Below are positions 36,300 through 50,770 of a stretch of DNA of 64,000 bases, one piece after another. Numbering within the stretch: position 1 is the first letter of the stretch; each line of letters starts with the position of its first letter. This stretch comes from Nocardia brasiliensis (GTDB taxonomy: Bacteria > Actinomycetota > Actinomycetes > Mycobacteriales > Mycobacteriaceae), in assembly GCF_011801125.1 (NCBI RefSeq), contig NZ_CP046171.1, positions 3,162,001-3,226,000 on the forward strand, read 5' to 3'. The notes beneath the pieces are model-generated. The model worked only from the letters and a program-made list of their open reading frames with translations. It searched no databases and was not told where the DNA came from. A program made the translations under genes and the position numbers.

Positions 36300-37634
36300 T
36301 TATGCCGACGACGTACGGGCGACGACTCGCATCTTCAACCGGCGTGGACCGCTGAACGCGCCCACTTTCGGACGGACACGGCAGTCCGATATTCGTTCCA
36401 GTCGCCAGCGGGTGGCGATGGTTGCCAGCGTCAGAATGGTGTCGGGTGTCGCCAGTGTTTCGCCGATGCACTTGCGACCGCCCGCGCCGAAAGGGAGGAA
36501 CGCGTAACGCGGTATCGCGTGTCCTGGTAACCAACGATCGGGGTCGAACAGGTCCGGATCGGCGTATTGATCGGCGCGGTGGTGGATTATGTAGGGGCTG
36601 TAAACGAGGTTGGTCCCTGCGGGAATCGAGTACTCCCCGAGCTGTGTGTCCATCGTGGCGACCCGGGTGACCAACCAGGACGGCGGCCAAATACGCAGGA
36701 CCTCGGTGACGACTCGAGCGGTCAATTCCAATCGCGGCAGATCCGCGTACGTCGCGTGCCTGCCCTGGAGAACCCCGTCGATCTCGGCGTGAACCCGCCG
36801 ACGGATATCCGGGTGCTCGGCCAGTGTGAACCATGTCCACGACAGTGCCGCGGCGGTGGTGTCCATGCCGCCGAGGAGGAGTCCGAGAATGGTTTCGACG
36901 ATTTGTCGGTCGGACAGCTGTGGTTTGTTGCTTGCCGGGTCGCGGGCATTCAACAGCGCGGTCAGCAGATCGGCGTGGTCGGTGGTACTGCCGCGACGCG
37001 CATCGATGGCCGCGTAGATGACCTCGTGCAGGCGCGCAGTGGCCCGTGCGTCGCGGCGGTGCCACGGCAGTGCCAGCCGATCCAGCCACGGTGGCAGGAT
37101 CATGCGCCGCAAGAGTCCGCCGAGCACAGTATCGAGATCGGCGAGAATCCGGTCCTTGGTCGCGGAGTGCATCCCAGCTGGAAAGACAGCGGCCAGAAAG
37201 CCTTTCGCGATGATGGTCCGCATTTCCGCGGCGACATCGATGGTTTGCCCATCGTGCCACCCGCCGATCACCGATGCGACGATGTCCGTCTTTGCCGCCA
37301 TGTAGCCGGGAATGCGTTGTCGATGAAACGCGGGCTGGACCAGGCGGCGCAGTCGGCGGTGTTGCTCATATGGGCACAGCGCCAGTCCTCCGCCTAACAG
37401 CGCCCGGCCTTGTTCGTAGAGCGGTCCGCCCTTGTCGAACGTGCGGTCGTCGCGCAGGAGCTGTTCGGTCAGTGCGGGGTCGCAGACCACGACAACACTG
37501 GAAACGCCGAAACGCAGCCGCACCAGCGAACCGTGCGCGGGCAAGGACGCCAGAAACGGGCCGAGCCGTCGCAGCTCGGTGAGGTGCCCGATCAGCGGCA
37601 GTCCAACCGGAACCGCCGGAATCGTGTCCTTCAC
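36300..37634 (-). CDS. Cytochrome P450, last gene of the terpenoid operon
   Basis: A 444-residue P450. The I-helix motif is GGMDTTA, the ExxR motif is in VTEVLRIWPP, and the haem Cys is in FGAGGRKCIGE. The N-terminus (VKDTIPAVPVGLPLIGHL) is the usual proline-rich start of a soluble P450. The GTG at 37634 lies 14 bases after the stop of terpene synthase 2 and has GGAG at a good distance. A terpene synthase immediately upstream makes oxidation of a terpene product the likely role. The ferredoxin/reductase fusion in the same operon could supply electrons. Confidence 0.92.
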   Translation of the reverse strand: MKDTIPAVPVGLPLIGHLTELRRLGPFLASLPAHGSLVRLRFGVSSVVVVCDPALTEQLLRDDRTFDKGGPLYEQGRALLGGGLALCPYEQHRRLRRLVQPAFHRQRIPGYMAAKTDIVASVIGGWHDGQTIDVAAEMRTIIAKGFLAAVFPAGMHSATKDRILADLDTVLGGLLRRMILPPWLDRLALPWHRRDARATARLHEVIYAAIDARRGSTTDHADLLTALLNARDPASNKPQLSDRQIVETILGLLLGGMDTTAAALSWTWFTLAEHPDIRRRVHAEIDGVLQGRHATYADLPRLELTARVVTEVLRIWPPSWLVTRVATMDTQLGEYSIPAGTNLVYSPYIIHHRADQYADPDLFDPDRWLPGHAIPRYAFLPFGAGGRKCIGETLATPDTILTLATIATRWRLERISDCRVRPKVGAFSGPRRLKMRVVARTSSA

Positions 37635-37648
37635 AGTGGTCTCCGCGT

Positions 37649-38899
37649 TCAGACGAATTTCCACCACCAGCGAATGGATTCCGGGGGCTCCGTCGGCGCG
37701 AACAACCGGTGCTCGGAGATCTCGTGCATGGCATCCTTCGTCAGGGTGCCGCTCGATTCCGCCGCGTCCATCTTCGTGCCGTATCGCGGCAGCCGTCGCT
37801 GCCATTCCAGCGTTCCCCGAACCATATTCGACAATTGCTCCAGATATCGTCGCAGCCCGGGGGAGCCGTCGGCGGCCAGCTTGTGCCGGAGCGCGACGAA
37901 CAAGGCCATGATCTCCTCGATCAGAGCGCACGCAGCATAGACGGCCTCCTGGTGGGACATGCCGTCGCGGGACGCGATGATCTCCACGATGTTGGATTCC
38001 AGGTTGCGCTGGTCCTTCTCCCTGGCGAACGACGCGATATCGGTCGGGACCGTCAGCAGTACCGTCGCCGCGTCGGTCAGCGCACGAACCGGCGGAGATT
38101 TGCGAGTAGCGAAATCGAGACAGGACTTTTCGGCCAGCTCGATCAGGACTACGCACGCCAGATCTCCACCATCGGGCGGACGGGCGATCATGTGCTCGTC
38201 CACGCTGCGCAGGTAGTCGCCGGACCTGTCCGAGACCCCGCATGCGGCGCCGAGCGCCCAGCGATAGTGCGACAGTACGCACATCATCAGCTGTTCGGCA
38301 CTGGCACGCGGTTCGACACGGGCCATGATGTCAGCCAGCGCCGCCGCGAAGGAGTCGAAGTCTTCGACGCCGAGTGGTTGGCGCTCGGGGTGCAGAGCAT
38401 AGTTCATGACGTTGGCCGCAAGATGATTGAAGGCCGTCGGGTTTCGGGACATCGGGCCGCTGTCACAGTAGTGGTCGTCGAACTGCAACGCCCACATCAA
38501 CCAATCGGCAAGCAGCTGAACACCTTCGGCGTCGCCGTCCGGTGCCCACATGCACGCGAGGTCGCCGGTGCACATGGCGCGGGCCGAACGCAATGCCTGT
38601 GGGCCGAAGCCCATTTCGCGGAAGAACTCCTCGGATCGCCGCTGAAATCCGGCGGAGCCGGCATGGTTACGCAGGTCCAACGGGCACCAGATCGGTGGAA
38701 TCTCCAGTGCGGACCCACCGGATTCGGACTCGGCTCGGCGGGTTGCCTCCGTGGTCGGAGCGTGGATGGTGCGCCGGAGTGCGCGACCGAATGCTGCGGG
38801 ATCCGGCGGCGTGGTGGGGGTGGCGAGCAGACTCGACACGTCCGCGGCAGTGGTTCCGAGGCCGGTGAGGCGGTGCACGACCGGAAGCGAGAGTGTCAT
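37649..38899 (-). CDS. Terpene synthase 2, 2-methylisoborneol-synthase-like
   Basis: A 416-residue class I terpene synthase. The Asp-rich motif is DDHYCD (141-146), the form typical of 2-methylisoborneol synthases, and IPPIWCPLDLRN matches the entry of the catalytic core in those enzymes. The second metal motif reads TDIASFARE (286-294), with Thr in place of the first Asn of NDxxSxxxE. The RY pair near the C-terminus is present (PRY). About 65 residues before the core are rich in Ala, Pro and Thr, the type of tail that directs cargo into family 2B encapsulins. No C-methyltransferase for geranyl diphosphate is in the window. TAGGAG upstream includes the stop of the split shell gene. Confidence 0.88.
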   Translation of the reverse strand: MTLSLPVVHRLTGLGTTAADVSSLLATPTTPPDPAAFGRALRRTIHAPTTEATRRAESESGGSALEIPPIWCPLDLRNHAGSAGFQRRSEEFFREMGFGPQALRSARAMCTGDLACMWAPDGDAEGVQLLADWLMWALQFDDHYCDSGPMSRNPTAFNHLAANVMNYALHPERQPLGVEDFDSFAAALADIMARVEPRASAEQLMMCVLSHYRWALGAACGVSDRSGDYLRSVDEHMIARPPDGGDLACVVLIELAEKSCLDFATRKSPPVRALTDAATVLLTVPTDIASFAREKDQRNLESNIVEIIASRDGMSHQEAVYAACALIEEIMALFVALRHKLAADGSPGLRRYLEQLSNMVRGTLEWQRRLPRYGTKMDAAESSGTLTKDAMHEISEHRLFAPTEPPESIRWWWKFV

Positions 38900-49662: not shown

Positions 49663-49732
49663 GGTTGTTGCCTCCTGTCGATGGGATGGAATGTCGTGCT
49701 TCGGTTCGATGGACCGTGCCTGCGGCGTCGGC

Positions 49733-50770
49733 TCACACGCTGCGATGAGCGATCAGACGCGCCAGCACCTCGAGATCGGCGCCCGCCGAATCGTCGGGAA
49801 GGCAACGCAATGCGGCCTCGGTTCGCCGATGCACCTGCTCCTCGGCCCAGCGCCGACCGCCCGTCGCCTCGATCAGTTCCGCGGCACGCGCGACCTCCGC
49901 TGCGGTGAGCCGATCTCGGCGGTGATAGAGCTCGTCGAGTTCCGTTGCGGCCGCTGTGCGTGAGAGCAGGGCCGCGACCACGGGCATGGTGTATTTCCGG
50001 CGGGCCAGGTCACTCGCGGGCTTGCCGATGTGGGCCTGCTCGCCCCAGATACCGATGAGGTCGTCGGTGAGTTGGAACGCCATGCCGAGTTCGCGCCCGA
50101 ACCGGTCCATTGCGGTCACGGTCTGCGGGTCAGCGTCCGCGCACAGCGCGCCGAGGGCGCAGGAGCAGCCCATCAGGGCACCGGTCTTCCGCATCGACAT
50201 CTGCTCGGAAGTTTCGAGCGAAAGTAGCTGTTCGGTTGTCGCCGAACAGTCTTCGTGCTGGCCGCGGCACAGCTCGATCACGGTGGATTCGAGTCGGTCC
50301 AGTGCCGGGCCGATGACGCCTGCCGGTAACCGTGTCGCCAGGACCTCGGCGGCCAGCGCGTGCAGGCAATCACCGAGCAGCACGGCGTCGGCGACGCCCC
50401 AGAGCGCCCACACAGTCGGCCTGCCGCGGCGCGTGCTGTCACCATCCATGACGTCGTCGTGCAGCAGCGTGAAGTTGTGGATCAGTTCGGCCGCGACCGC
50501 TGCCGGCGCGGCGGATTCGGGTGCGCCGCCCGCGGCGACGCACGCGGATATCGTCAACGCCGGGCGCAACAACTTTCCGGTATTTCCGCGCAGCGCTCTG
50601 CCCTGCGCATCCCACCAGCCGAAGTGGTAGCCTGCCATTCTTCGCAATGGTTCCGGCATCGATTCCACCGCAGCGTGCATTTCGGGTTCCAAGATTCCTC
50701 GGGCAAGTCCGAGAATTTGGGACGGCCGATGTCCCGGAGTGGGAGAAGCAGTGGTGCTCAGGAGGTTCAT
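49733..50770 (-). CDS. Isoprenyl diphosphate synthase (polyprenyl synthetase family)
   Basis: A 345-residue trans-prenyltransferase. The first Asp-rich motif is DDVMD (105-109) and the second is DDLIG (236-240); the product-length region before the first motif is LIHNFTLLH. It condenses IPP with DMAPP, GPP or FPP. The product chain length is not readable, but C10 or C15 would serve the two terpene synthases. About 30 residues before the core (TASPTPGHRPSQILGLARGI) could serve as an encapsulin-targeting tail. It is the first gene of the operon; the promoter should lie in the 327 bp upstream. Confidence 0.92.
   Translation of the reverse strand: MNLLSTTASPTPGHRPSQILGLARGILEPEMHAAVESMPEPLRRMAGYHFGWWDAQGRALRGNTGKLLRPALTISACVAAGGAPESAAPAAVAAELIHNFTLLHDDVMDGDSTRRGRPTVWALWGVADAVLLGDCLHALAAEVLATRLPAGVIGPALDRLESTVIELCRGQHEDCSATTEQLLSLETSEQMSMRKTGALMGCSCALGALCADADPQTVTAMDRFGRELGMAFQLTDDLIGIWGEQAHIGKPASDLARRKYTMPVVAALLSRTAAATELDELYHRRDRLTAAEVARAAELIEATGGRRWAEEQVHRRTEAALRCLPDDSAGADLEVLARLIAHRSV

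Follow-up and report, generated by a model that had tools for sequence, protein, structure and literature searches.

A Nocardia brasiliensis gene chain that links methylerythritol phosphate pathway genes to Family 2B encapsulin genes and two terpene synthases

We analyzed a 64,000-nucleotide stretch of the Nocardia brasiliensis genome (assembly GCF_011801125.1, contig NZ_CP046171.1, positions 3,162,001 to 3,226,000; hereafter the window), in which ten minus-strand genes combine Family 2B encapsulin shell genes (ENC1, ENC2) with a prenyltransferase (PT), two terpene synthases (TS1, TS2), three methylerythritol phosphate (MEP) pathway genes, a ferredoxin-reductase fusion (FdR) and a cytochrome P450. 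We consider it probable that this is a Family 2B operon for an oxidized sesquiterpene, in which the MEP and FdR genes boost precursor supply in the cytosol and only TS2, which bears a tag, is loaded into a shell. Linkage of an MEP cassette to encapsulin genes is recurrent rather than unique, because we found it at several Nocardia loci and in one related family. The host genome is a single contig of 7.95 Mb.

The gene chain

A sequence-only reading had described a minus-strand chain at 36300-50770, a terpenoid operon tied to encapsulins that also holds dxs, ispG, ispH and a ferredoxin/reductase fusion, and our family matches agree with this order and content. From 50770 down to 36300, the genes and the inserted element are:

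49733..50770, minus strand: PT, isoprenyl diphosphate synthase, 345 aa, short N-terminus (PF00348, 192.6 bits)
48232..49662, minus strand: ENC1, Family 2B encapsulin shell protein, 476 aa, intact (NF041163, 692.4 bits, cut-off 400; PF19307; PF00027; PDB 9bhu, 9bje, 9bix)
47261..48205, minus strand: IspH, 314 aa (TIGR00216, 298.3 bits, cut-off 187.85)
45420..47264, minus strand: Dxs, 614 aa (TIGR00204, 553.2 bits, cut-off 465.95)
44275..45423, minus strand: IspG, 382 aa (TIGR00612, 399.5 bits, cut-off 280.25)
42596..44287, minus strand: FdR, ferredoxin fused to an FprA-like NADPH reductase, 563 aa (Fer4, Pyr_redox_2; FprA 1lqt, 390 bits over 110-548)
41586..42599, minus strand: TS1, class I terpene synthase, 337 aa, no tag (PF19086, 104.7 bits)
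40837..41589, minus strand: ENC2 N-terminal piece, 250 aa (NF041163 positions 1-230)
39575..40837, plus strand: IS3-family insertion element, 1,263 bp, with open reading frames (ORFs) at 39643-39951 and 39948-40808 (NF033516, 241.4 bits, cut-off 160; HTH_Tnp_1)
38908..39570, minus strand: ENC2 C-terminal piece, 220 aa (NF041163 positions 233-449)
37649..38899, minus strand: TS2, terpene synthase, 416 aa, TGLGT-type tag near the N-terminus (residue 12) (PF19086, 82.7 bits)
36300..37634, minus strand: cytochrome P450, 444 aa (PF00067, 234.5 bits)

Recomputing the junctions confirmed the four ATGA overlaps of 4 bp (ispH-dxs, dxs-ispG, reductase-TS1 and TS1-ENC2) and the 13-bp overlap (ispG-reductase) reported earlier. 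Gaps of 70, 26 and 8 bp separate PT from ENC1, ENC1 from ispH and ENC2 from TS2, respectively. The P450 start chosen here, a GTG at 37634 with a Shine-Dalgarno-like sequence, leaves 14 bp after TS2; the alternative, an earlier GTG at 37667, would give a 19-bp overlap with TS2. Repeating the NCBIfam scan with the chosen starts of TS2, P450, FdR and Dxs left the verdicts from provisional starts unchanged. The insertion in ENC2 was the one frame disruption seen among the ten genes. The overlaps and short gaps are the indications that the ten genes may form a single transcript; a promoter scan with a sigma-70 model that may not suit Nocardia gave one promoter-like site against 1.8 expected, and a terminator scan gave seven terminator-like sites against 6.8 expected, both at chance level. 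Rfam and tRNA scans of the window gave no match.

A putative loading tag on TS2

GPTGLGT-type motifs have been proposed as targeting sequences and are borne by cyclases resembling 2-methylisoborneol synthase (2-MIBS) (PMC8346489). Among the proteins of the window operon, TS2 alone has a TGLGT-type motif; a motif scan found none in PT, TS1, FdR, P450, Dxs, IspG or IspH. TS2 combines this motif with a terminus predicted to be disordered (residues 1-61, with predicted local distance difference test values <50 in the structure model), the two features by which encapsulin terpene-cyclase cargo is recognized.

Comparison of the enzymes in the TS2 position, which come from the window, from loci L027 and L028 of N. 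terpenica, from L029 of N. brasiliensis and from L032 of the window's own genome, revealed a shared peptide ending in TG(L/I)GTxAADV at the likely start of all five, followed by a linker of variable length. The tagged enzyme of L028 is a different synthase (24% identity to TS2 over the aligned protein; best model, isoafricanol synthase), and 16 of its first 27 residues match those of TS2, a value reached in 0 of 100,000 shuffles. TG(L/I)GT occurs in 7 of 33 TS2 homologues compared with 0 of 37 TS1 homologues; records whose start is set too late to show the motif may be among those counted. A relaxed P/F/L-(T/S)G(L/I/M)GT-type motif lies near one synthase end at all eight Nocardia loci that pair a cassette ispG with an encapsulin (the window, L027, L049, L145, L146, L150, L152 and L153). 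The last five share a second architecture, described below, and in each of them (T/S)G(L/I)GT lies no more than about 25 residues from the synthase C-terminus; the same C-terminal motif is found in the synthases of two loci that showed no encapsulin, L148 and L143. From these comparisons we infer that the tag of TS2 loads cargo into the shell here.

A C-terminal tag was also considered for TS1, whose shell-linked Nocardia forms have tails that end in a T-x-R motif. We do not claim one, because the tail codons extend into the beginning of the following gene and could be conserved for that reason.

The predicted product

The closest TS2 relative with a known product is ArgT of Nocardia argentinensis (61% identity over 77% of TS2), which yields guaia-1(10),11-diene (PMC10055836). 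Unlike TS2, ArgT is a 324-aa record without the tag, and the word encapsulin is absent from that paper. The best fold match of TS2 is selinadiene synthase, and the nearest models for the P450 are terpene oxygenases (369.2 bits against pentalenene oxygenase, below the cut-off of 800). By sequence comparison, TS2 is a relative of sesquiterpene synthases; the ArgT likeness, the selinadiene synthase fold and the affinities of the P450 together lead us to predict an oxidized sesquiterpene.

Previously, TS2 had been called a 2-MIB-synthase-like enzyme, a label that we reject. Scored with the complete N-terminus, TS2 reaches 91.1 bits on the model for 2-MIBS-type encapsulin cargo (cut-off 400) and 150.2 bits on that for selinadiene synthase (cut-off 450); both values are below cut-off, and 2-MIBS is the weaker fit by model score. 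An operon in which TS2 makes 2-methylisoborneol (2-MIB) inside the shell would explain why its N-terminus is TGLGT-type, as in 2-MIBS-like cyclases (PMC8346489). We nevertheless regard this as extremely unlikely, given the low cargo score, the guaiadiene-producing relative ArgT, the selinadiene synthase fold and the lack, among family matches of the ten operon genes, of a geranyl diphosphate (GPP) 2-C-methyltransferase. The genome also holds both expected components beside an encapsulin gene at another locus, L016. Known 2-MIB encapsulin operons share with the window a Family 2B shell and a class I terpene synthase that bears a tag, but the window lacks their methyltransferase and its TS2 falls far under the cargo cut-off.

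L016 (5270-9017 of its stretch, at about 2.81 Mb in the same genome) is a 2-MIB-type encapsulin locus in its own right: beside the encapsulin gene lie a GPP 2-C-methyltransferase (491.4 bits, cut-off 400) and a cargo of the 2-MIBS type in which GPTGLGT occurs twice (546.9 bits, cut-off 400).

Precursor supply

Three of the seven MEP enzymes (Dxs, IspG and IspH) are encoded in the operon, whereas dxr, ispD, ispE and ispF are absent from the family matches obtained for the ten genes. A second dxs and a second ispG are present elsewhere in the genome, so the operon copies look like dedicated extras; the two Dxs proteins are 55% identical over the aligned part. FdR scores 83.5 bits against FdxA_Actino, below the cut-off of 125.

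In the model that we favor, dxs, ispG, ispH and the ferredoxin-reductase likely raise precursor supply in the cytosol. Dxs would act at pathway entry and IspG and IspH at the last two steps, with DXR and IspD/E/F supplied by the housekeeping pathway; FdR would give electrons to IspG and IspH and may also serve the P450. PT would make farnesyl diphosphate, which TS2 would cyclize inside the shell, and the P450 would oxidize the product outside it, while TS1 would draw on the same precursor pool to make a second terpene.

The same genes had been read as a self-contained terpenoid factory, a view that does not hold in that form given the four missing MEP genes and the second dxs and ispG. A rival account in this vein would gather the MEP enzymes together with PT and both synthases, inside the shell or on its surface, as one production unit, and could draw on the translational overlaps within a single gene chain and on the resemblance of PT to published encapsulin cargo prenyltransferases (418.7 bits against the cargo model, for which 450 are needed; 420.3 of 475 against IdsB). 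Nonetheless, we judge it improbable: only three of seven MEP enzymes are present; neither these enzymes nor FdR, PT or TS1 bears the TGLGT-type motif; PT has a short N-terminal extension in place of the 50-100 residue disordered N-terminus of such cargo; and 6 of 14 cassette loci have no encapsulin in the fetched stretch (see below).

Shell genes and the insertion element

ENC1 has the HK97-type SrpI-like domain (PF19307, 430.3 bits, cut-off 22.8) and a cyclic nucleotide monophosphate (cNMP)-type domain inserted before the main domain (PF00027 at 121-208). The window had been credited with two encapsulin shells, but in this strain ENC2 is split: no single open frame spans the NF041163 profile, and its two pieces flank an insertion element. 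We assign the element to the IS3 family on its IS3 transposase, inverted ends and short target repeat. Its plus-strand ORFs encode an HTH_Tnp_1 protein and an rve-type IS3 transposase, its ends are inverted with 23 of the first 25 bases matching, and the target repeat CTA stands on both sides; in these respects we see no notable difference from known IS3-family insertion sequences. Other copies, three full ones at 100% identity and one partial, lie at 2421400, 3651505, 5277353 and 6155539 of the genome, and the 3-bp repeats of the three full copies are CAA, CAG and CCA. Four identical full copies, the window's included, each with its own 3-bp repeat, indicate that the element was mobile recently in this genome.

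ENC2 orthologues have open frames in four related loci (L027, L028, L029 and L032), to which the window's pieces are 65-74% identical. Counting the broken ENC2 once, the genome has seven family 2 encapsulin genes, five besides ENC1 and ENC2; these five include the shell pair of a paralogous operon near 4.45 Mb (L032), with the order PT-ENC1-TS1-ENC2-TS2-P450. The shell in the window strain would be built from ENC1, perhaps together with ENC2 of the paralogous operon, and the insertion likely lowers expression of TS2 and the P450.

An alternative is that the cluster is decaying, the insertion having silenced the end of an operon whose whole set is being lost while the paralogous operon does the work. 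The element in ENC2 with its clean target repeat, the loss of most of FdR in the relative L027 and the presence of the paralogous operon in the same genome all fit this scenario. However, no other frame damage was seen in the operon, the ENC2 pieces are still close to intact orthologues, and the identical copies make the element look recent. On balance we think decay unlikely, if the most serious competitor to the sesquiterpene model.

Another of the family 2 shell genes in this genome, at L018, is Family 2A by model.

Relatives and spread of the linkage

To place the operon among relatives, ispG was searched in 150 Nocardia genomes and about 10 kb either side of it was fetched. Fourteen loci, the window included, carry an ispG at least 80% identical to that of the window. 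An encapsulin lies in the fetched stretch at eight of them (G000, G131, G031, G143, G009, G040 and two loci of G127) and at none of the other six (G090, G087, G148, G065, G092 and G080, the last with a stretch that stops at a contig end). Eight ispG loci of lower identity (L154-L161) gave no encapsulin match in their fetched stretches, and five further lower-identity genomes (G083, G085, G039, G005 and G014) gave none on the cassette's contig. In a tree of IspG proteins, the window's IspG pairs with that of L027 (100/97) inside a clade of 14 cassette rows (100/99) that stands apart from housekeeping IspG and in which cassettes linked to encapsulins are interspersed with others.

The earlier proposal to look for the same gene order in other Nocardia genomes was borne out at L027 and, from PT to FdR, at L049. 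L027 (G131, N. terpenica) reads PT-ENC1-IspH-Dxs-IspG-TS1-ENC2-TS2 with the second shell gene intact, and the gene after TS2 is an opposite-strand peptidase rather than a P450. At 11112-12239 of L027, the 22 first FdR residues are fused in frame to TS1, and 18 of 21 compared residues equal those of the window's FdR; FdR was therefore once present there and has mostly been lost. L049 keeps the order PT-ENC1-IspH-Dxs-IspG, as L027 does, and has FdR. In N. suismassiliense (L030, L049), the order is TS1-PT-ENC1-IspH-Dxs-IspG-FdR, and then another terpene synthase, whose N-terminal frame contains PTGMGT. FdR relatives (73-74%) lie on contigs of 38,022 and 493,269 bases, which, judging from equal size, they probably share with TS1 and tagged TS2 relatives. 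The module also exists without MEP genes, in L028 (the genome of L027), L029 and L032.

TS1 relatives at E <= 1e-20 were found in 6 of the 150 genomes, the window's own included, and weak ones in G086 (29%) and G146 (37%; locus L031 fetched); a scan of genome contigs with TS1 gave no relative. By the route through ispG, two shell genes together with MEP genes were seen in 2 of the 150 genomes. Outside the genus, 3 of 12 fetched loci (L190, L192 and L193) have two encapsulins, PT, IspH and IspG, with a Dxs match in L190 and L193; L191 has the cassette and a single encapsulin near the stretch edge, and the remaining eight have no encapsulin. All four encapsulin-cassette loci (L190-L193) belong to one family, f14. 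A scan of public genomes with ENC1 (80 of 123 relatives fetched, several stretches cut by contig ends) yielded 2 of 80 relatives, L049 and L079, with a Dxs, IspG or IspH match at E <= 1e-12 in the fetched stretch. In evenly drawn samples of the order and the class (397 and 394 genomes), the window's IspG was the sole one listed above 75% identity.

A second Nocardia architecture (L145, L146, L150, L152 and L153) comprises an encapsulin, PT, a large synthase, IspH, IspG and a second PT, with a Dxs match only in L152.

Comparison with known systems

Family 2B prenyltransferase systems often encode genes for precursor biosynthesis, and terpene cyclases occur together with prenyltransferases in 165 systems (PMC8346489); terpene cyclases can sit between Enc1 and Enc2 (PMC12407261). 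The window resembles these operons in its cNMP-type shell, prenyltransferase, cyclase between the two shell genes and TGLGT-type cyclase motif (PMC8346489, PMC12407261). It differs in that PT lies upstream of ENC1 rather than downstream of Enc2, and in its MEP trio with ferredoxin-reductase, two unrelated synthases and broken ENC2. The suggestion that such an operon may be undescribed therefore stands in part: precursor genes in prenyltransferase systems are published, in general terms (PMC8346489), whereas in the open-licence literature we found no description of an encapsulin operon with MEP genes and their electron supply; the reviews retrieved there bring up encapsulins in other contexts only.

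Several observations count against the sesquiterpene model. The NSE triad normally begins with asparagine; in TS2, and in its orthologues in L027, L029 and L032, threonine takes that place. TS2, PT, FdR and the P450 all score below the curated cut-offs of specific NCBIfam models. The synthase of L143 is tagged, with no encapsulin in the fetched stretch, and three frames that probably do not encode protein also contain the relaxed motif. In published prenyltransferase cargo the N-termini are disordered and no tag is known (PMC8346489), so PT may be loaded as well. Finally, in Streptomyces lydicus the upstream shell protein alone formed no shells and the downstream one did (PMC12407261). Like the window, S. 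lydicus has two Family 2B shell genes per operon; its operon is of the xylulose-kinase type, and co-assembly was shown there (PMC12407261). At diagnostic motif 1, ENC1 reads MRRG, which is unlike TVWK in S. lydicus Enc1 and nearer to RRRK in S. lydicus Enc2 and RRRG in 9bhu.

Because the gene chain links precursor supply (dxs, ispG, ispH and an electron donor) to a likely encapsulated terpene synthase, dedicated flux to shells becomes testable. For engineering, the tag, present on cyclases that are not related to one another, is a candidate for a portable loading signal. The broken ENC2, set against its intact relatives, offers a natural experiment on the reason for shells with two components, and the same genome supplies its own comparison in the paralogous operon, which lacks MEP genes. 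More tentatively, and with about one chance in three in our estimation, the locus could be a plug-in terpene line, in which the MEP and electron cassette floods the cell with precursors, the shell tag has moved between unrelated synthases so that the product is exchanged by swapping the enzyme, and the strain is a natural ENC2 knock-out that shows what one shell protein does alone.

Neighboring genes

A gene with an HTH_31 helix-turn-helix domain at 51098-52357 lies on the same (minus) strand, 327 bp upstream of PT, and is a possible regulator. Two features point to mobile DNA near the operon: a phage-integrase-like ORF at 53739-54725 (minus strand; sub-threshold, 24.3 of 27.1 bits) and another rve transposase fragment at 62015-62674 (minus strand). 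A 387-aa ORF at 59758-60921 (plus strand) matches the diphtheria toxin T domain family below threshold (25.3 of 27 bits), for which chance is a plausible explanation.

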